DNA of 49,197 nt, from NCBI GenBank assembly GCA_005116815.1, contig SWDR01000017.1:75250-124446 (forward strand). Direction: 5' to 3'. Under the pieces are notes generated by a model, which was given only the letters and a program-made list of their open reading frames with translations, was not told the DNA's origin and made no database searches. Both the position numbers and the translations under genes were made by a program. This DNA comes from Nitrospira sp. (lineage in GTDB: Bacteria > Nitrospirota > Nitrospiria > Nitrospirales > Nitrospiraceae). Numbering within the stretch: the stretch's first letter is position 1; each line of letters begins with the position of its first letter. Positions 5,090 through 42,001 of this stretch are shown one piece after another.

Positions 5090-5443
5090 TTATTTCTTTG
5101 GGGCGCGGGCTTTGACGCTATTCACATAATCGGCAATGGCCGCATCGACTTCGCCCAGGGTCATGGGGCGGTCATGGGTTTCACTTTCGTCCACGAGATA
5201 GCGATCCTGCTCTTTTTCCTGCCGAAGGACCACGGAATTTTCCGGGGTCACCTCGATCAGCATGAACCACTCGCGGGTTCCCTGCGTGATGACGACTTCC
5301 TTGCCAAGGCCCTTTTTCGTTATTTCGATGTGAAGATCGTCCGATGCCCCAACGAAGGAGGGAATCGTGAAGAGCCCTGCGGCCAAGAGTGCCACCCCAA
5401 GCACAGGACTGAGGAGCGTTATGAAGGGCGAGCGGGGGGACAT
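5090..5443 (-). CDS. Small exported protein of unknown function
   Basis: The 117-residue product has an N-terminal hydrophobic segment (FITLLSPVLGVALLAAGLF) consistent with a signal peptide, with possible cleavage after VGA. A mature part of about 85 charged residues follows, with a beta-rich middle (REWFMLIEVTPENSVVLR) and a lysine-rich end. I do not recognise a family. Ending 9 bases before the DsrE-like start, it is likely translated from the same transcript. It is probably periplasmic. Confidence 0.7.
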   Translation of the reverse strand: MSPRSPFITLLSPVLGVALLAAGLFTIPSFVGASDDLHIEITKKGLGKEVVITQGTREWFMLIEVTPENSVVLRQEKEQDRYLVDESETHDRPMTLGEVDAAIADYVNSVKARAPKK

Positions 5444-5545
5444 AGTAAAGAGATTATAGCCCGTTGCGAAAGGCGCCGTAAACCGTCGATAGCACCTGGT
5501 CGTTGGCTTGAGTGCCTCAAGGTCGCATGTTAGGATGCGCGTCCC

Positions 5546-5977
5546 ATGGATGGCCTACTCGCAACAATACAGCAATGGATTCCGGTCGATGTGCTGATCG
5601 GTCTTGCCGTGGCTGGGGCGATCGGTTTTATCGGCTCGCTGATCGCCATCCCGTTGATCCTGGTCCGCTTGCCGGCCGACTATTTCGACACGAGGACTCC
5701 CCGCCACTGGATGAAAGACCACCATCCCCTGCTGCGCCTGCTGGGGCTGGTCGTCAAGAACGTCCTCGGCGTCGTATTCCTCCTGGCTGGTTTTGCCATG
5801 CTCTTTTTGCCGGGGCAGGGCCTGCTGACGATGCTGGTCGGGGTATCGCTCATGGATTTCCCCAGAAAGCGCGAGCTGGAGGCCAAAATGGTCGGCCAGC
5901 CGACCCTGCTGGGCATTATCAATTCTATGCGCCACAAGTTCGATAAGCCACCGCTGACATTAGCGCCCGATCCCTAA
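5546..5977 (+). CDS. PGPGW-type small membrane protein
   Basis: A 143-residue integral membrane protein with two hydrophobic stretches (VLIGLAVAGAIGFIGSLIAI and VLGVVFLLAGFAMLFLP). The signature LPGQGLLTMLVGVSLMDFPRK resembles the PGPGW family, where LPGPG is usual; here the second proline is glutamine. The function of the family is unknown. The short cytoplasmic tail is charged. It is divergent from the minus-strand exported protein and is followed 17 bases later by the polA fragment, so the two could share a transcript. Confidence 0.75.
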   Translation: MDGLLATIQQWIPVDVLIGLAVAGAIGFIGSLIAIPLILVRLPADYFDTRTPRHWMKDHHPLLRLLGLVVKNVLGVVFLLAGFAMLFLPGQGLLTMLVGVSLMDFPRKRELEAKMVGQPTLLGIINSMRHKFDKPPLTLAPDP

Positions 5978-5994
5978 CGCCGTTTCCCAACACC

Positions 5995-6336
5995 ATGCCC
6001 AGCCTCGAATCCAACCGCAAGACGCTCTATCTGATCGATGGGAGCGCCTATATCTATCGTGCATTCTTCGCCCTCCCGGCGATGAATAATTCCAAGGGCC
6101 TCCAGACCAACGCGATCCTCGGCTTCACGACGATGTTGCTGAAGATTATGCGCGAGAAGAAGCCGGACGGCCTCGTCGTGGCGTTCGACGAAAAGGGCCC
6201 GACGTTGCGTCACGCGGAGTTCACCGCCTATAAGGCGCAACGGCCGCCGATGCCGGACGGCATGAGTGCTCAGATTCCCTACATCCATGCCCTCACCTTC
6301 TGGATAGAACTGACGCGCCAGGCGCCGATTCGTTGA
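5995..6336 (+). pseudogene. polA: 5' fragment of DNA polymerase I, cut near 6290
   Basis: The first 98 or so residues are the N-terminus of the PolA 5'-3' exonuclease domain: LYLIDGSAYIYRAFFALP, GFTTMLLKIMREKKPDG, VVAFDEKGPTLRH and YKAQRPPMPDGM, then QIPYIH. In the family this continues through the rest of the exonuclease and the polymerase, about 800 further residues. Here the frame turns into ALTFWIELTRQAPIR and stops. None of the remaining polA is found in the window. As polA is normally present intact, this is a deletion, an insertion-associated loss or an assembly mis-join. No function is expected from the 113-residue product. Confidence 0.85.
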
Positions 6337-31715: not shown

Positions 31716-31787
31716 AGGTCCCCTGATAGAGCGGCGGGCGGTTTCTGCGCGCCTTCCTGCATACATGAATTGTCGGCAAGGGATACG

Positions 31788-32984
31788 ATGGGACTAGGCG
31801 ACGGATTTTATCGCATCAAACGGCTACCGCCATATGTGTTTGCCCAGGTGCAGAGCCTCAAGCTTGAGGCTCGCCAACAGGGTGAAGACATTATCGATTT
31901 CGGAATGGGCAACCCTGACCAACCGACGCCGAGCCATATCGTCGAGAAGATGATCGAGGCGGCGCGGAAGGGGAAAAACCATCGCTACTCGGCCTCGCGC
32001 GGCATCACCAAACTGCGGCATGCGATCACGGGGTGGTATAAGCGGAATTACAACGTCGACCTGGATCCTGAGACCGAGACCATTGTGACGATCGGGTCCA
32101 AGGAAGGGTTGGCGCATTTGGCCCTGGCGCTGATCGGGCCAGGCGATGTAGTCCTGACGCCGACGCCGACCTATCCCATCCATATGTACAGTTTTATCAT
32201 TGCGGGGGGAGAAGTCCGCGGAATCGAGTTGCGCCAGGACAGCGACTTCTTTGACGATTTACAGCGGGTCTACCGCCAGACGTTCCCGCGGCCGAAGATT
32301 TTAGTCATCAATTTTCCGCACAACCCCACCACTGCCGTGGTGGATCTCGAGTTTTTCAAGAAAATTGTCGCCTTCGCCAAAGAGCATAGCGTGATTGTCA
32401 TTCATGACCTGGCTTACGCGGACTTAGTGTTCGACGGATATAAGGCGCCGAGCTTCTTGCAAGCTCCTGGGGCGAAAGATGTCGGTGTCGAGTTCTATAC
32501 CCTCTCGAAGGCCTACAATATGCCAGGTTGGCGTGTGGGCTTCTGTTGCGGCAATCGTGAGGTTGTTGGCGCGCTGGCCAAGATTAAGAGTTACCTCGAC
32601 TATGGCATTTTCCAGCCGTTGCAGATCGCTAGCGTCATTGCGCTGAATGGACCGCAAGAATGTGTCAAAGAGACGGTCTTGCGTTATCAGAAGCGCCGGG
32701 ATGTGTTGGTCGGCGGGTTGAATCGCATCGGATGGCAGGTGACGAAACCCGTGGCTACCATGTTTGTCTGGGCCAGGATTCCGTTGCCCTATCGATCCAT
32801 GGGCTCGTTGGAGTTTTCCAAACTCTTGCTCCGCGAGGCGAAAGTGGCGGTGTCTCCCGGGATCGGGTTCGGGGAAGGCGGGGATGAATATGTGCGTTTC
32901 GGCCTTGTCGAAAACGAGCATCGCACGAGGCAAGCCGTGCGCGGTATTCGCAAGGCCCTGAAGCTTGGGGGGGCGGAAGAATGA
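31788..32984 (+). CDS. Class I aminotransferase (AlaC/AspC-like)
   Basis: A 398-residue fold-type I PLP enzyme. It shows [36 protein letters not shown], the phosphate region [13 protein letters not shown], and the Schiff-base lysine in [16 protein letters not shown]. The sequence is nearest in style to AlaC, a glutamate-pyruvate aminotransferase, and to the aspartate aminotransferases that open threonine operons. Supplying aspartate or removing amino groups from pathway intermediates would fit the neighbours. ATG 31788 ([10 protein letters not shown]) follows AAGGGA; a TTG at 31770 is less likely. It overlaps hom by 4 bases (ATGA), so the two are coupled. Confidence 0.9.
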
Positions 32985-34294
32985 TCTCGCGTGTGGGCGT
33001 CGGCATCATTGGATTCGGCACGGTTGGGACGGGCGTCGCGAAGATCCTCTTGGAGAATGCCGCCTTGATCAGCCGTCGGGTCGGTGTGCCGATCGAGCTC
33101 GTTCGGATTGCGGACCTCGATGTGACGCGCGACCGCGGACTGACCCTGCCGCCCGGCCTCCTCACGACCGATGCGAAGCAGATTCTCAACGATCCTTCGA
33201 TCGACATCGTCGTGGAGTTGGTCGGAGGCTGCGACTTTGCCAAACGCATCATTCTGGAATCCATTGCAGCCGGGAAACATGTCGTCACGGCGAATAAGGC
33301 CTTGCTGGCGATACATGGAGAAGAAATATTTGCCGCGGCGTCCAGCAAGGGAGTCGACCTGGGTTTCGAAGCGAGCGTGGGAGGGGGGATTCCCGTCATC
33401 CAGGCCTTGCGAGAGGGGCTGGCGGCCAATACGATCCAATCCATTTATGGGATCATCAACGGGACGGCCAATTACATTCTCTCGCGTATGACCCATGAAG
33501 GTCAGAGCTTTGAAGCGGTCCTCGACGAAGCGAAGAAGGCCGGTTATGCCGAAGCGGATCCGACCTTCGATGTCGCCGGTATCGATTCGGCGCATAAGCT
33601 GGCGATCCTGGTGGCGCTGGCCTATGGAACGCCGGTGAATGTGAAAGAGGTATACACCGAGGGGATCACGCATATTACGCCTCTCGACATCGCGTACGCC
33701 AAAGAGTTCGGTTGTACGATCAAGCTGCTCGGCATTGCCAAGTTGGTGGGCAACGAAGTGGAGGCCCGCGTGCATCCGACGATGTTGCCGTCTTCGTCTC
33801 CGATCGCTCAAGTCGAAGGGGTCTACAACGCAATTCAACTCGTCGGCGATGCGGTGGGCGACGTGGTGCTCTATGGCCGTGGTGCGGGGTCCATGCCGAC
33901 TGGCAGCGCGGTGGTCGGCGATCTCATCGCCATCGCGCGTAATCTGTTACAAGGAGCGGCTGGGCGAGTGCCGCCCGCCTCATTCAAGCAGGACCAGCGG
34001 CGTCCGCTTCGTATGCGGCCCATGGAAGAGATCAGCTCGCTCTATTACCTCCGGTTTATGGTCCTGGACCGCCCCGGAGTGTTGTCGCAGATTGCAGGGG
34101 AACTGGGCCGGTGCGGCATCAGTATCTCGTCGGTTCTCCAACAGGGGCGACGCGAAGGACAGACGGTTCCAGTTGTGATCAAGACCCATACGGCAACAGA
34201 GCGCGATGTCCAAACGGCATTGCGGGCGATCAATCAGATGGCATTTATTTCAGAGCCGACGACGTTGATTCGCGTCGAAGGCAAGGACGAGTGA
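32981..34294 (+). CDS. hom: Homoserine dehydrogenase
   Basis: A 437-residue NAD(P)H enzyme reducing aspartate semialdehyde to homoserine. The Rossmann motif is [16 protein letters not shown]. Family blocks [27 protein letters not shown] and the catalytic [20 protein letters not shown] are present. The C-terminal ACT domain ([19 protein letters not shown]) suggests feedback control, probably by threonine. It is followed by thrC after 4 bases. asd, which supplies the substrate, is not in the window. Confidence 0.97.
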
Positions 34295-34298
34295 TGCG

Positions 34299-35357
34299 AT
34301 GATACGCTGGCGTGGCTTAATCGAAGAATATCGGAAGTTTCTTCCCGTGACCGAACGTACTCCCGTGGTGACGCTCGGTGAAGGCAACACGCCGCTCATT
34401 CGGGCGACCAGGTTGGCCAAGCAGATTGCTCCCGGTATCGACCTCTATCTCAAAATCGAAGGCGCGAATCCCACAGGGTCGTTTAAGGACCGCGGCATGA
34501 CGATGGCGATCTCAAAGGCCGTCGAGTCCGGTGCCAAGGCGGTGATTTGTGCCTCCACAGGGAATACGTCTGCCTCTGCCGCAGCCTATGGCGCGAGGGC
34601 TGGGCTGGCGGTCTATGTCTTGATTCCTGCCGGGAAGATTGCGATGGGCAAGTTGTCTCAGGCCATGATGCATCAAGCCACGGTCATCCAGATTGAAGGA
34701 AATTTCGATCAGGCCTTGACCATCGTGAAGGAATTGTCAGTGAGCCACCATATCGAGCTGGTCAACTCGCTCAACCCCTATCGAATCGAGGGGCAGAAAA
34801 CCGCCGCGATGGAAGTCTGCGATCAGCTCGGCGATGCCCCGACCATTCATGTGCTGCCGGTTGGGAACGCCGGGAATATTACCGCTTATTGGAAGGGGTA
34901 TCAGGAATACCGTGCGGCCAATCAATCCACGAAACTGCCTCGCATGATTGGGTTTCAGGCGTCCGGTGCGGCGCCCATCGTGCTGGGCCACATTGTGGAG
35001 AATCCGCAGACCGTGGCCACGGCGATCAGGATCGGTAATCCGGCTAGCTGGCAATCGGCGTTGGATGCCGTGAAGGAGTCGTCCGGCGCAATCGATTCGG
35101 TGACGGACGAAGAGATTTTGCACGCCTATCGTGCGGTGGCGGCGACGGAAGGCGTCTTCTGCGAGCCGGCATCCGCTGCCTCGGTGGCCGGCGTCATCAA
35201 GTTGAATAAGCAGGGCGGGCTTCATGAAGGTGAGATCGTCGTCTGCACGTTGACGGGCCATGGATTGAAAGATGCCGATACGGCGATCAGTGTATCGGTT
35301 CAACCGAAAACCGTTAGAGCGACGCGGGAGGATGTCGCTCGTCTTTTAAGGGTGTAG
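34299..35357 (+). CDS. thrC: Threonine synthase
   Basis: A 352-residue fold-type II PLP enzyme converting O-phosphohomoserine to threonine. The PLP lysine is in [15 protein letters not shown]. The phosphate and substrate loops [20 protein letters not shown] and [19 protein letters not shown] are intact. This is the short bacterial type, similar to Bacillus enzymes. It needs phosphohomoserine, so a homoserine kinase must exist; the next gene is the candidate but its active site looks degenerate. Confidence 0.96.
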
Positions 35358-35379: not shown

Positions 35380-36621
35380 ATGAAATATGTGATTCTCCAT
35401 GCCGACGGGATGGCAGCCCATCCCCGGCAGGAATTGGGCGGACGGACTCCTCTTCAGGTGGCCTCAACTCCTCATCTCGATCGCCTCGCGCAAGCCGGGG
35501 AGCTTGGCCTCCTGGCCTCGTCGCCAGAGCAGCATCGGCGTGGGAGCGGATTGATGGGGACGGCTATCCTCGGATACGACCCCAAGAAATATTATCAAGG
35601 TCCCGGCCCGTTCGAAGCAGCCAGTCTGGGGGTTGCCGTGGGCGAGCAGGATGTGGCCTATCGTTGTACGATGGTCACGTTGCGGGCAGACGTGCAGCCC
35701 GGGAGTAAAGGTGGATTGAACGAGATCAAAAAGCTGGGGCCGCATGTGGTGATGGACGATGCGACCGCCGGCCTGATTTCGACGGAAGAGGCTCGCGAAT
35801 TGATCGAGGCGATCAATGAACAGCTCGGGTCTGAGATGATTCAGTTCTATCCCGGATTAGGTCATCGTCATCTCATGGTGTGGGGCAATGGGAAGTCACG
35901 AGCCGTCTGTACGGATCCACAACTATTGGTTGGTCGACCGATTGCCGAAGCCTTGCCGACGGGAGAAGGAGCGGACTTTCTCTGGAAGCTCATGGACGCG
36001 TCGTTTCAGATTTTGCGCGATCATCCCCTCAACGAAGAACGGAGTGCGGCGGGACAGAAGCCGGCCAATTGTCTCTGGCTCTGGGGCGAAGGCCGTGCCC
36101 TGTTCTGGCCAAGCCTTTCTGAACGATTCAAGATGGCCGGTGTCGTAGTCTCTCAGAGCGATGTCCACCGCGGCCTTGGCATCATGGCCGGTCTTGAGGC
36201 GGTCGATGGCTCGCGATTAGCTGGTGGAGATCTTCGTACCCAGGCGGCGGTTGCCCTGGAGGAACTCGTCAAAAAAGACTTTGCCTACGTGCATGTGGAA
36301 TTGCCTGACGAGGTGCTTTACGGGTCGGATGTCGCAGCGAAGGTGAAGGCCATCGAAGCGGTCGATCGCGAGTTGGTCGGGCCGCTGCTCGACGGACTGG
36401 CCAAATTGGGCTCCCATCGTATCGTGGCCCTGTGCGATTTCGGCAACGTGCAGCAAGGTCAGGCTGCGGACGGTCCCGGGTTTTTCGCCTATTGCGATAG
36501 TACTGTGTCTCCCTCTGCGGGAGCCGGGCGGAGATTTATCGAGGCCGATGCTCAGGCTTCGACCGTGCCGTCTCGTGATGCGACGAAGTTCATCGTGCGA
36601 TTATTCGCAAAAGGATCCTGA
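35380..36621 (+). CDS. Phosphoglycerate-mutase-like protein, proposed homoserine kinase type, with degenerate metal motifs
   Basis: A 413-residue member of the apgM/alkaline-phosphatase superfamily, of the subgroup found in threonine operons and proposed as a homoserine kinase where ThrB is missing. Fold blocks are kept: [40 protein letters not shown] and [18 protein letters not shown]. However, the usual G-S-D nucleophile region reads [17 protein letters not shown] reads PDEVLYGSD, and the D-H metal pair reads [12 protein letters not shown], with no later H-T or H-S. At least three histidine ligands and one aspartate are thus replaced. The protein is full length and lies 22 bases from thrC and 5 from lysC, so it is probably expressed. 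It may be a pseudoenzyme, a binding partner, or use a different mechanism. Confidence 0.8.
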
Positions 36622-36626
36622 CGACC

Positions 36627-37868
36627 GTGGCGCTGATAGTCCAGAAATATGGAGGGACCTCCGTCGGTACGATCGAGCGGATCCGTTGTGTGGCCGAACG
36701 TGTCGAGCGAGCACATAAGGATGGCCATCGCGTCGTAGTGGTGCTATCCGCGATGAGCGGCGAAACGGATCGGCTGCTTCGGTTGGCGCATGAAGTGACG
36801 CCGCTGCCGGATGATCGCGAGCTCGATATGCTGTTGTCGACCGGAGAGAGGGTGACGATCGCCTTATTGGCGATGGCCTTGCGGGCCAGGGGACTCGATG
36901 CCCAATCGTTTACAGGCCGTCAAGTCGGGATTATGACCGACAGTGCCCATACGAAAGCACGGATTACCAGGGTGAGCGCCGATCGAATTCGAGAGGCTCT
37001 GCTCAACGGGGTTATCCCGGTGGTTGCCGGTTTTCAGGGGATCAATGAGCAGTCGGATGTTACGACGCTGGGGCGCGGCGGCTCCGATCTCACGGCCGTT
37101 GCGTTAGCTGCGGCGCTGAAGGCCGATCGGTGCATCATCTTTACCGACGTCGATGGTGTCTATACATCGGACCCCAATATCGTGCCTGCGGCTCAACGCA
37201 TCGACAAGATTTCCTATGAGGAAATGTTGGAAATGGCCAGTTTGGGTGCCAAGGTGCTGCAGAGCCGCTCCGTCGAATTTGCCGCAAAGTTCAATGTGCC
37301 GGTGGAGGTGAATTCCAGTTTCAAAGAAGGAAAGGGGACGCTCGTGACGCGTGAAGATGAGGACATGGAAGCGGTCGCGGTGTCGGGTGTGACCGGCGAT
37401 CGGAATCAGGCGAAAATCACGATCGTGGGCGTGCCGGATAAGCCGGGTATTGCATCGAAAGTCTTTGGGCCGGTGGCGAAGGCCCACATCAATGTCGATA
37501 TGATCATCCAGAATATGGGCCAGTCTGGCATGACCGATATTTCCTTCACGATTCCACGGGTCGATATCAAGAAAGCGCTCCCGCTGATTCAGGACGTGGC
37601 AAAAGGGATCGATGCCAAATCGGTCGCTGTGACCGAGGCGATTGCGAAGGTCTCGCTGGTCGGCGTCGGGATGCGTTCCCATTCGGGCGTCGCGGCCAAG
37701 ATGTTCGATGTGTTGTCGGGGGAAGGTGTGAATATTCTGATGATCAGCACGTCGGAGATCAAGATCTCCTGTGTCATCGATGAAAAGTATGTGGAGCTCG
37801 CCATGCGTTCGCTGCATACCGCTTTCGGGTTGGATCAGCCGCTGGCCGCGGACCGGGTTGTGAAGTAA
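36627..37868 (+). CDS. lysC: Aspartate kinase
   Basis: A 413-residue enzyme for the first step of the aspartate family pathway. The catalytic domain has [36 protein letters not shown] and [16 protein letters not shown]. Two ACT domains follow ([20 protein letters not shown] and [20 protein letters not shown]) with the [13 protein letters not shown] end, so feedback by lysine and/or threonine is expected. GTG at 36627 is the start. An internal alternative start for a separate small subunit, as in Bacillus LysC, is not obvious. Confidence 0.97.
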
Positions 37869-37924
37869 CGAATTTCTGATGCTGTGAGTTTCAGTCAGTA
37901 TTGTCCTGCTACCGCACCTTTTTT

Positions 37925-39577
37925 ATGGCTCGAAAAACACCTCAGTCACGATCCTCACAAGGCAAGCCTGGCGCTTCCTCATCCTCCGGTCTGTCTTCTC
38001 CTGCCGCAAAGCCGGCGGTATTGGAAATCTACGACACCACGTTACGGGACGGAGCGCAGGCCGAGGATGTCAGTTTTTCGGCAGAAGACAAGGTTCGAGT
38101 CGCGCAACAGTTGGATGGGCTTGGCGTCCAGTTCATTGAAGGCGGGTGGCCCGGCGCAAATCCCAAAGACATCGAATTCTTCCGGATGATCAAGACGATC
38201 CCGTTACAGACGGCGACAGTCGTGGCATTCGGGTCGACCAGAAAAGCCAGCAATACGGTACAGGCCGACCCGAATATCAAGGCATTGTTGGATGCCGAGA
38301 CCAAGGTCATCACGCTCTTCGGGAAAAGTTGGTCATTACACGTCACCGATGCGCTCGGTATTTCCCTCGCGAAGAACCTTGAAATCATCAGCGATTCAGT
38401 GTCCCATCTCCGCTCCAAAGGTCGGCGGCTGTTCTACGACGCGGAGCATTTTTTCGACGGATACAAGACGAACCCGGACTATGCGCTGGAGACCATTCGC
38501 CAAGCGGTGGCCGCCGGCGCCGAGCGGGTGATTCTCTGCGATACCAATGGCGGGACGATGCCATGGGAGATCAAAGAGATTTGCCAGATCGTTCGGCGGG
38601 AATGTGCCGTACCGTTGGGGATTCATGCGCATAACGATTGTGAGATGGCGGTCGCGAACTCCCTGGTAGCGATTGAAACCGGTGTCCTGCAAGTACAAGG
38701 AACGATTAACGGGATTGGCGAACGGTGCGGCAATGCCAATCTCTGTTCGATCATTCCCAATCTTGAACTGAAGATGAAACGGGTGGTGCTGGGAGAGCGG
38801 TTGAGCCATCTCAAGCGGGTGTCTGGATTCGTGACCGAAATCGCGAACCTCATGCCTAACACGCATCAGCCGTATGTGGGAGATTCGGCGTTTGCCCATA
38901 AGGGCGGGATCCATATCCATGCGGTACTCAAGAATGCCGCCACCTATGAACATGTGATTCCCGGGTTAGTCGGGAACCGCCAGCGTATGTTGGTGTCGGA
39001 TGCGGCTGGGCGGAGTGGATTGCTAGAGAAAGTCGAGGCCTATGGGATCAAATTGGACAAGAGCCACGCCAAGTTGCAGGAATTGATCGATGTACTGAAG
39101 GAGCGTGAAAGTCAGGGCTACCAATTTGAGGCGGCAGAAGGTTCCTTCGAGTTGCTGATGCGAAAAGCGATGGGAACCCACAAGCCGCCGTTTCAACTCC
39201 TGGGCTTTCGGGTGATTATCGAGAAAAAACAAGACCATGGCGCGTCATCGTCGGAAGCCACAGTGATGGTGAAGGTCGGCGACGTGGTGGAGCAAGCGGC
39301 AGCGATTGGGGCTGGGCCGGTCAATGCGCTCGACCATGCGTTGCGGAAAGCATTGGAGAAGTTTTACCCCCAACTCCGAGAAGTCAAACTGCTCGACTAT
39401 AAAGTGCGCGTGTTGTCGGCCAATCGTGGGACCGAGTCCAAGGTTAGGGTATTGATCGAATCAGGCGATCATAAGGATAAATGGGGCACCGTCGGTGTAT
39501 CCGAGAACATCATGGAAGCCAGCTGGCAAGCGCTGGCAGACAGCATTGAGTACAAGTTGCTGTTCAAAGACTCATGA
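37925..39577 (+). CDS. cimA: (R)-citramalate synthase
   Basis: A 550-residue enzyme condensing pyruvate and acetyl-CoA to citramalate, giving isoleucine without threonine deaminase. The DRE-TIM barrel shows IYDTTLRDGAQAEDVSFS, CDTNGGTMPWEIKEIC and GIHAHNDCEMAVANSLVAIE, followed by NGIGERCGNANLCSIIPN. The C-terminal LeuA-type allosteric domain (FQLLGFRVIIEKK) follows. The CimA subgroup rather than 2-isopropylmalate synthase is inferred from DGAQAEDV and the length. The first 35 residues form a Ser/Lys-rich extension of unknown role. ATG 37925 was preferred to TTG 37901. Confidence 0.93.
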   Translation: MARKTPQSRSSQGKPGASSSSGLSSPAAKPAVLEIYDTTLRDGAQAEDVSFSAEDKVRVAQQLDGLGVQFIEGGWPGANPKDIEFFRMIKTIPLQTATVVAFGSTRKASNTVQADPNIKALLDAETKVITLFGKSWSLHVTDALGISLAKNLEIISDSVSHLRSKGRRLFYDAEHFFDGYKTNPDYALETIRQAVAAGAERVILCDTNGGTMPWEIKEICQIVRRECAVPLGIHAHNDCEMAVANSLVAIETGVLQVQGTINGIGERCGNANLCSIIPNLELKMKRVVLGERLSHLKRVSGFVTEIANLMPNTHQPYVGDSAFAHKGGIHIHAVLKNAATYEHVIPGLVGNRQRMLVSDAAGRSGLLEKVEAYGIKLDKSHAKLQELIDVLKERESQGYQFEAAEGSFELLMRKAMGTHKPPFQLLGFRVIIEKKQDHGASSSEATVMVKVGDVVEQAAAIGAGPVNALDHALRKALEKFYPQLREVKLLDYKVRVLSANRGTESKVRVLIESGDHKDKWGTVGVSENIMEASWQALADSIEYKLLFKDS

Positions 39578-40665: not shown

Positions 40666-41022
40666 ATGCGCATTGTAGTCACCAACGATGATGGAATTCA
40701 TTCGCCCGGGTTGACGGCGCTGGCGAAGGCCTTGTCCAAGGTGGGCGAGGTCTGGGTCGTGGCGCCGGATCGTGAGCGGACCGCAGCAGCCCATGCAGTG
40801 ACGCTCCATAAACCGCTACGAGTGCAGCAGTTGGGGACGCGGATTTATGCGGTCAGTGGCACGCCAGTCGATTGTGTGAATCTGGCCGTCCTGAAAATTC
40901 TGCCTGCACCGCCCGACCTCCTCGTGTCGGGAATCAATAGGGGCGTGAATCTCGGCGACGATGTGTTGTATAAAACGAAAGCTCGAGGATTTGCAGGCCG
41001 GCGCGCGGGTGGATGTGGATGA
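40666..41022 (+). pseudogene. surE: 5' fragment of 5'/3'-nucleotidase SurE, fused out of frame to cysS
   Basis: About the first 102 residues are SurE: MRIVVTNDDGIHSPGLTALA with the metal-binding D-D, VWVVAPDRERTAAAHAVTLH, then SGTPVDCVNLAVL and VSGINRGVNLGDDVLY. SurE then normally continues with a conserved S-G-T-V-S-A-A block for about 150 residues. Here it stops at about 40970 and the frame reads foreign sequence to 41022. The break lies in the catalytic domain, so the product is not expected to work. Confidence 0.85.
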
Positions 41023-42001
41023 ACGAAAGCGTCATCCTATGGATTTCGCGCTCTGGAAGAGCAGCAAGCCTGGCGAGCCGTCATGGGAGAGTCCCTGGGG
41101 GCCAGGGCGACCGGGCTGGCATATTGAATGTTCCGCCATGGCGATGCGTCATTTGGGTGAGACCTTCGATATTCATGGCGGAGGGATGGATCTCATTTTC
41201 CCTCACCACGAAAACGAAATCGCGCAGTCTTGTGGCGCCACCGGGAAGGAATTTGCGCGCTACTGGATTCACAACGGGTTCGTGCAAATCAACCAGGAGA
41301 AGATGTCCAAGTCCCTGGGCAATTTCTTCACGATCAGAGAGATCTTTGAGAAATCCGAATGGCCGGAGGATATCGCCGGAGAGATGCTGCGCTACTTTCT
41401 CCTCGCGACGCAGTACCGTGGTCCACTCGATTTTTCCGATCACGCAATAAACGAAGCCAAGCAGACGTTGAATGGGTTCTACGATCTGTTTAAGCGTCTT
41501 GAAGAGAAAACAGAAAGTGCCACGGCTGACAGGGATCTTCCTGGAGTGATGAAGCGCTGTAGAGCGGCGTTCTGCGAAGCGATGGATGATGACTTTAATA
41601 CGCCAGTGGCACTTGCAGAGCTGCAGCGGATGAAAAGCGACGTCAATAAATTGCTGAGCCTGGGCCTCTCGACGGAGGCGCGGAAAATTTCCAGAAAAGA
41701 ATTCCGATCGCTCGGCAATATCCTGGGGTTGTTTCAGTTCGATAAATGGGAGTTCGTAGATAAGCCGCGGCCTGGAGATGTAGTTGTGGGTCTCACGGGT
41801 GTTGAGTCTCGAATAATGGTTGGTCAGGTGTCACCCGAGATTGAACTTTCAAAAGAGCAGATCGAACAACAGATTGCGGAGCGTCTCGATGCAAAAAAGA
41901 AGAAGAACTTTTCAAAAGCCGACGAGATTCGTCAGTTCCTCGCCTCCCGCGGCATCGTCATTGAAGATAAGCCCGACGGCACCAGTCGCTGGAAGCGATA
42001 G
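40970..42001 (+). pseudogene. cysS: 3' part of cysteinyl-tRNA synthetase, missing its catalytic start
   Basis: From about 40970 the frame encodes the CysS C-terminal two thirds: LEDLQAGARVDVDERKRHPM, DFALWKSSKPGEPSWESPWG, GWHIECSAMAMRHLG, FPHHENEIAQS and the ATP-binding EKMSKSLGNFFT, through the DALR domain to GTSRWKR. The N-terminal HIGH motif and first zinc cysteine are missing. An ATG at 40961 would open the frame but lies in the surE part. Since CysS is normally essential, an intact copy should exist elsewhere, or this is an assembly mis-join. Confidence 0.85.

Follow-up and report, generated by a model that had tools for sequence, protein, structure and literature searches.

The gene between thrC and lysC in the threonine operon of Nitrospira, here called X, encodes a protein of the apgM/TIGR02535 type whose active site has decayed. 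The decay is real, lineage-wide, and new to the literature searched. Judging from the residues that have disappeared, X is very probably dead for its ancestral chemistry, and the evidence favours a pseudoenzyme kept for another role over a new kinase, without settling the choice. In the window, i.e., the whole stretch of 49,197 nucleotides of Nitrospira sp. DNA that was analysed, X belongs to a tight one-strand cluster in the order aminotransferase-hom-thrC-X-lysC-cimA.

31770..32984, + strand: aminotransferase (PRK08175 alanine transaminase model, over cut-off); the conserved cluster begins with this gene
32981..34294, + strand: hom, homoserine dehydrogenase with an ACT domain
34299..35357, + strand: thrC, threonine synthase (TIGR00260 over cut-off)
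35380..36621, + strand: X, apgM/TIGR02535-like, 413 aa, ATG start, decayed active site (profiles, alignment, and AlphaFold2 model)
36627..37868, + strand: lysC, aspartate kinase
37901..39577, + strand: cimA, citramalate synthase (TIGR00977 over cut-off)

X starts 22 bp after the end of thrC and ends 5 bp before the start of lysC. An earlier note on this DNA had placed hom, thrC, and lysC beside X and had described the protein as full length with a kept fold. The gene coordinates and profiles agree with the former claim, and the latter is borne out by the Pfam matches (PhosphMutase, E = 3.9e-45; Metalloenzyme, E = 2.1e-13), an AlphaFold2 model built from 78 sequences (pLDDT 90.1, pTM 0.90), and PDB matches to archaeal iPGMs. 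These iPGMs were the best matches in a Foldseek search of the model against the PDB, with chains of 3kd8 (E = 1.1e-27) and 3idd followed by 2zkt in fifth place. The former D-H...H segment, residues 351-370, had a local confidence of 66-73 in the model of X, compared with 90-95 for the same segment when an intact homologue was modelled from 24 sequences. Hereafter, f1 denotes the window's own family (taken to be Nitrospiraceae from the titles of the loci that X matched), f2 the other sampled family of the same order, and f3, f4, f8, f11, and similar labels families elsewhere in the phylum. X passes the cut-off of 320 of the apgM subfamily model TIGR00306 with 328.8 bits; when five family members were scanned with this model, the one below the cut-off was that of G119 (280.1 bits). 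On the other hand, X fails the curated cut-off of 446.3 of TIGR02535, the proposed homoserine kinase, with 324.4 bits. Four other family members scored 277.9-342.5 with TIGR02535, whose cut-off was exceeded by three homologues belonging to other families of the phylum (557.7, 531.3, and 566.9).

Based on the roles of residues in iPGM structures, we take the seven ligand and nucleophile positions of X to be D9, S56, D310, 314 (His), D353, 354 (His), and 363 (His) in window numbering. The corresponding codons and the cap are located as follows.

35398..35406, + strand: codons 7-9 with H7 and D9; the metal ligand D9 is kept here and lost in 47 of 89 family proteins (alignment)
35545..35550, + strand: S56, the nucleophile position, kept here and lost in 23 of 89, and G57, which is D in 20/20 and 37/37 proteins outside the family
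35755..36189, + strand: cap (substrate-binding) domain, codons 126-270, well conserved in the family
36076..36084, + strand: W233-L-W235 of the cap
36307..36321, + strand: D310-E-V-L-Y314, ancestral D-E-x-x-H, metal-ligand His gone
36436..36441, + strand: D353-F354, ancestral D-H, second metal-ligand His gone
36466..36468, + strand: A363, where the third metal-ligand His belongs (kept in 0 of 89)

X of the window keeps four of the seven residues, D9, S56, D310, and D353. All three metal-binding His residues are lost and are replaced by Y314, F354, and A363; the D of G-S-D (R-G-S-G at 54-57) and a conserved Lys (now Q288) are gone as well. The motif changes reported in the earlier note, namely G-S-G, D-E-V-L-Y, D-F, and a missing last His, were all seen, at residues 54-57, 310-314, 353-354, and 363. 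Relatives with 94-97% identity to X of the window also lack the three His residues and have S at position 354. The loss is therefore more than a base error, and a sequencing or assembly error was ruled out as its cause. A broken copy in the window with an intact paralogue elsewhere was also ruled out by the presence of one homologue per family genome, the exceptions being G175 (which has a 40-residue fragment at a contig end in addition), G153 (a fragment only, also at a contig end), and G152 (none). A role of X as the phosphoglycerate mutase of the cell was rejected on the basis of the lost ligands and the presence of dPGM, which was over the cut-off in all 13 near-complete f1 genomes checked and in both f2 genomes; no iPGM was over the cut-off in these 13 f1 and two f2 genomes.

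The distribution of the decay was determined with 91 f1 genomes (95% completeness filter, the window's own genome added); the named relatives are titled Nitrospira. The alignment contained 117 proteins, consisting of 89 from f1 (16 genera), 20 from 15 other families, three from f3, and five from f11, and the outside set was extended by 37 proteins, 36 of them full length, to 56 full-length proteins (58 genomes matched, f3 and f11 apart, two of them with contig-end fragments). All seven positions are kept in none of the 89 full-length f1 proteins vs all 56 full-length proteins of other families. The very diverged operon copies of f3 and f11 are also complete at the seven positions (8/8). Among the 89 f1 proteins, one position is kept in two, two in six, three in 13, four in 30, and five in 38. 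The numbers retaining each position are 42 for D9, 66 for S56, 79 for D310, 57 for H314, 82 for D353, 37 for H354, and 0 for H363; the corresponding loss-only events within f1 on the protein tree are 7, 5, 2, 5, 2, 11, and 1. Even among the 15 proteins of the window's own genus, which are 81-97% identical to X of the window, column 354 is occupied by S, G, A, F, or W, and in genus g2 (36 proteins) D9 is gone in all and the serine in 15. A search of the collection with X gave 71 loci, of which 64 have the title Nitrospira, Nitrospiraceae, Nitrospirae, or Nitrospirota; the remainder comprise one Nitrosospira (64% identity) and six from Clostridia, Oscillospiraceae, or another bacterium (34-39%). 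At two loci of f5 (L388 and L393; genomes G039 and G046), the frame holding X is 949-955 aa long and may be a gene fusion, and the seven ligands are kept.

The earlier note had proposed an alignment with operon-linked homologues and had said that subgroup members of proven kinase activity without these ligands would make X ordinary. According to an excerpt of PMC9765024, BT2402 of Bacteroides thetaiotaomicron has fully conserved zinc sites, and its D9 corresponds to D12 in the structure of a phosphoglycerate mutase. Since the outside homologues are intact (56/56) and the zinc site of BT2402 is fully conserved, ligand loss is not normal for the TIGR02535 subgroup. As a control, the columns that are invariant in the 20 outside proteins were compared. 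In f1, 363 of 623 ligand cells (0.58) are kept, compared with 4809 of 8010 cells (0.60) of the other invariant columns, i.e., there is no excess ligand loss in f1 (permutation P = 0.45). The finding in f1 is accordingly a lack of special protection of the ligands and not an excess of loss. In the same control with f3 and f11, all 56 ligand cells were kept, as opposed to 348 of 720 cells (0.48) of the other invariant columns. The site is guarded in f3 and f11, where catalysis presumably persists, and unguarded in f1.

The gene as a whole is under purifying selection. The dN/dS of X (simple Nei-Gojobori) was 0.08-0.13 against seven relatives at 82-97% identity, compared with 0.00-0.08 for the five neighbour genes, which marks X as the faster-evolving gene. 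With two relatives at a greater distance, for which dS is near saturation, the values were 0.10 and 0.20, the latter with a genus-g3 relative. Of the 91 family genomes, 89 carry a stop-free full-length frame of X. The positions of X, thrC, and lysC of f1 were determined by tblastn at 92 loci, which are overlapping sets from fewer independent genomes. thrC lies directly upstream of X in 91 of them (the remaining one is a contig end). lysC follows X within 250 bp at 90 loci and at a distance of 292 bp at one; at the remaining locus it lies beyond the contig. X combines homology to an enzyme family, loss of catalytic residues, and purifying selection on the gene, as expected of a pseudoenzyme.

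Within X, the cap is better protected than the core. All 89 f1 proteins have N218, R221, W233, and W235, while H164 and R264 are present in 88 and R163 in 86. Both Trp residues of W-x-W are present in all 117 aligned proteins and in 35 of the 36 further outside ones. For columns invariant in the 20 outside proteins, retention in f1 was 0.71 in the cap vs 0.51 in the core (P = 0.001); for columns conserved to at least 80%, f1 keeps 0.72 in the first part of the cap and 0.42 in the C-terminal core, vs 0.20 and 0.52, respectively, in f3 and f11. Outside the cap, D329 is kept in 89 of 89 f1 proteins, and H7 is fixed in f1 (89/89) and absent outside (0/20 and 0/37). E41, an inserted K118, E147, and Q155 are also newly fixed in f1. 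In residues 351-385, the mean frequency of the top residue in f1 is 0.42. The persistence of the cap and its W-x-W beyond that of the catalytic site hints at a ligand-binding role.

Another homoserine kinase was searched for in the genomes of the family and its relatives, and absences were judged on the relatives because the window's own assembly is 71.6% complete. In the window itself, at 40666-42001 (+ strand), the 5' half of surE (40666-41022; residues 1-106 of 189 of the SurE profile) runs into the 3' half of cysS (from 40961), and four relatives (L032, L033, L034, and L210) have approximately 1.6 kb of extra DNA at the corresponding junction. Because cysS is normally essential, this junction is probably an assembly join in an incomplete genome. 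ThrB (TIGR00191) was over the cut-off in none of the 91 family genomes, 90 of which have matches below it, and the APH-type homoserine kinase (TIGR00938) was over the cut-off in none, with 19 weak matches. The one near-exception, G119 (locus L136; record C1, 1343965-1345983), has a ThrB match of 167.7 bits (cut-off, 168.25), the next best among the 91 genomes being 59.2. This borderline ThrB adjoins a second thrC, 55% identical to that of the window, so that G119 probably gained a thrB-thrC pair. Its X is still in the operon and is decayed, with two of the seven positions kept; the sister genome G169 also keeps two, so the decay in G119 is not clearly deeper.

Fold-level searches with PF00288, PF01202, and PF01636 were performed in 24 genomes, after which six GHMP, two shikimate kinase, and two APH proteins were scanned. 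A single GHMP kinase is present in each of the small f1 genomes G180 (1.8 Mb), G184 (1.7 Mb), and G105 (2.0 Mb) and in each of the two f2 genomes. A ThrB hidden among the GHMP matches was ruled out for the six scanned (the window's own genome G000, G180, G184, G105, G081, and G065), all of which are IspE over the cut-off. The same five small f1 and f2 genomes each have one clear shikimate kinase, and G184 has an additional weak partial match. The two scanned, from G180 (f1) and G081 (f2), scored 96.6 and 103 bits with the model of the shikimate-kinase-type homoserine kinase (NF040667; cut-off, 197) and were rejected; both score higher with shikimate kinase models, and the gene of G081 overlaps one read by eye as aroE. 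Each small f1 and f2 genome also has a strong APH match (PF01636) of one kind, a protein of approximately 370 aa. It was rejected as the homoserine kinase, the two proteins scanned matching AmgK models below their cut-offs; its gene adjoins a putative MurU-type nucleotidyltransferase gene in the six loci read (L344, L349, L351, L352, L358, and L359, from G000, G105, G081, G001, G184, and G141). The second APH matches of f2 are weak (frames of 524-526 aa; 33.6 and 22.9 bits), and the larger f1 genomes carry further GHMP and APH matches besides those scanned. The earlier note had seen no ThrB in the window and had regarded a thrB elsewhere as the way out of the pathway puzzle. The former observation holds beyond the window, with G119 as the near-exception, and since neither TIGR00191 nor TIGR00938 is over the cut-off in any of the 91 family genomes, the puzzle stands. 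An excerpt of PMC5767232 describes growth in mineral medium for the Nitrospira strains ND1 and NJ1, and on that account they must make threonine.

The sister family f2 has a similar gap. A midpoint-rooted tree of Hom, ThrC, LysC, and CimA, based on 45 loci that each carry two or more of these genes (one locus dropped), placed f1 and f2 together (support, 1.0), and f3 and f11 joined next (0.935). With regard to a possible change in the substrate of ThrC, eight positions, one of which is the start, differ between f1 plus f2 and the other families, and ThrC is 68-69% identical to that of the ThrB-bearing f3. The operon of f2 (L133) has the order aminotransferase-hom-thrC-lysC-cimA, without X and with 176 bp between thrC and lysC. 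A homology search detected no match to X in the f2 genomes G065 and G081 (loci L133 and L134; gene order read in L133), and these genomes have no ThrB over the cut-off and no match that reads as a known homoserine kinase. As judged from gene content, f2 is a second lineage with an apparently unfilled homoserine kinase step, and f2 must have a kinase other than X if it makes threonine. X was matched in none of the three f8 genomes sampled, and G006, the one searched, is without ThrB over the cut-off. On the other hand, ThrB was over the cut-off in all five genomes searched of f3 (three) and f11 (two of five, leaving out G037, G056, and G086). In f3 and f11 (L137-L141 and L143-L145), X in the operon is extremely diverged and has lost much of the cap, and it keeps all seven ligands (8/8); it thus appears as the mirror image of X in Nitrospira. 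At L141 of f11, a 241-aa frame (5353-6078, + strand) between the aminotransferase gene and hom has no Pfam match at E 0.001.

These data can be arranged into a reading in which X is a non-catalytic ligand-binding or regulatory protein and homoserine is phosphorylated by a separate kinase; we give this reading as a whole an even chance of being correct. The ancestor of X would have been a two-metal, serine-nucleophile phosphotransferase of the threonine operon, i.e., the proposed homoserine kinase TIGR02535. The third metal-ligand His would have been lost on the branch to Nitrospiraceae, after which f1 lineages repeatedly lost other ligands and even the nucleophile, and metal-dependent phosphotransfer by X would have ended. 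If the kinase is shared, X could have been freed from catalysis in the common ancestor of f1 and f2, which would fit its absence in f2 and the decay of the site with a kept cap in f1. A putative cap pocket formed by R163, H164, N218, R221, W233, W235, and R264 (placed by homology) may bind a pathway metabolite, with homoserine and O-phosphohomoserine as candidate ligands, and X may regulate or partner one of the neighbouring enzymes ThrC, Hom, and LysC. The separate kinase, common to f1 and the X-less f2, would make O-phosphohomoserine. It is fairly likely that the homoserine kinase of Nitrospira lies elsewhere, and a regulatory or ligand-binding role of X is a putative one that may equally prove right or wrong. 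We infer the separate kinase from the absence of known kinases in these genomes. The options offered by the earlier note, a pseudoenzyme, a regulatory or carrier subunit, or a new type of kinase, gain support from the loss of ligands vs the intact homologues and from the absence of ThrB over the cut-off in 91 genomes. Counting against a pseudoenzyme, four of the seven positions remain in X of the window and five in 38 of the 89 proteins, and strict operon linkage and purifying selection would equally fit a working kinase.

It is conceivable that X is still a homoserine kinase or phosphotransferase with a changed chemistry that dispenses with the two-metal site and sometimes also with the serine, for example by direct transfer in the cap pocket or by use of one Mg and the Asp residues that are left. 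The failure of TIGR00191 and TIGR00938 to reach their cut-offs in any family genome while hom and thrC adjoin X, the near-fixed thrC-X-lysC order, the purifying selection, and the retention of the cap residues and of D310 (79/89), D353 (82/89), and D329 (89/89) all speak for such an enzyme. However, the ligands vary between close relatives (the five residues at column 354 belong to one genus), eight of 89 members retain just one or two of the seven positions, and the sister family f2 manages without X. To our knowledge, no alkaline-phosphatase-superfamily phosphotransferase works without its metals. We therefore regard a changed chemistry as unlikely, and the specific proposal that X phosphorylates homoserine via the cap domain without two metals, the serine nucleophile also being dispensable in some lineages, as slightly more doubtful still. 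A new catalytic role in the old pocket, based on family-specific fixed residues such as H7 beside D9, would account for the fixation of H7 (0/20 and 0/37 outside) and of E41, K118, E147, and Q155, but conservation is poor in the C-terminal stretch of the old site (0.42 in residues 351-385), the local model confidence is 66-73, and there is no candidate reaction; we consider this improbable.

X as a decaying relic without function would be in line with its faster evolution than that of its neighbours and with its absence from f2, but a dN/dS of approximately 0.1, full-length stop-free frames in 89 of 91 genomes, and invariant cap residues make a relic highly improbable. The missing step could instead be a second activity of another known enzyme, for example the single shikimate kinase, with X as an accessory. 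A homoserine kinase of the shikimate kinase fold exists in Desulfovibrio, according to an excerpt of PMC5764234 (NCBIfam NF040667), and the shikimate kinases of G180 and G081 score 96.6 and 103 bits with that model. These scores are far under the cut-off of 197, however, shikimate kinase models score higher, and the G081 gene overlaps a putative aroE, so that a second activity has little probability.

Nitrospira are major nitrifiers, and an unfilled step of an essential pathway is exposed in them: the protein that annotation would offer for the homoserine kinase step has an evolutionarily unprotected site. Either this order has a new homoserine kinase that is to be discovered or a phosphotransferase continues to work in dismantled form; if X still phosphorylates homoserine, threonine synthesis in Nitrospira rests on a new kinase type. 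The homoserine kinase activity of TIGR02535 is itself a proposal. In an excerpt of PMC7311316, TIGR02535 was proposed as a homoserine kinase replacement, and BT2402 was required for growth without threonine, yet did not rescue an E. coli thrB mutant. The persistence of the cap in X may relate to this failure of BT2402 alone to rescue the thrB mutant. A gut survey gave the name ThrB2 to a protein of the TIGR02535/BT2402 type (excerpt of PMC9026213). The decay of a TIGR02535-type protein in Nitrospira is named in no paper among the open-licence matches listed.

Compared with known systems, ThrB (GHMP-type, TIGR00191) and the shikimate-kinase-type kinase NF040667 perform the pathway step expected of X, but their folds are unrelated to that of X. 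PhpG (CMP-5'-phosphonoformate:3-phosphoglycerate phosphonoformyl transferase, NF038358) is a related family of the fold of X, which matches it with 138 bits; X is far under the NF038358 cut-off of 545, and the gene neighbours differ. The archaeal cofactor-independent phosphoglycerate mutase (apgM; 2zkt and 3kd8) has its fold in common with X and gave the top PDB matches by both sequence and structure, whereas X is without the metal-ligand His residues and has W-x-W in the cap where 2zkt and 3kd8 have L-x-R. TIGR02535/BT2402 of B. thetaiotaomicron differs from X in that BT2402 keeps the full metal site, which 0 of 89 members of the X family do, and in the score of X (324 vs the cut-off of 446), but it resembles X in its full-length homology, its operon with thrC and hom, and its cap domain.
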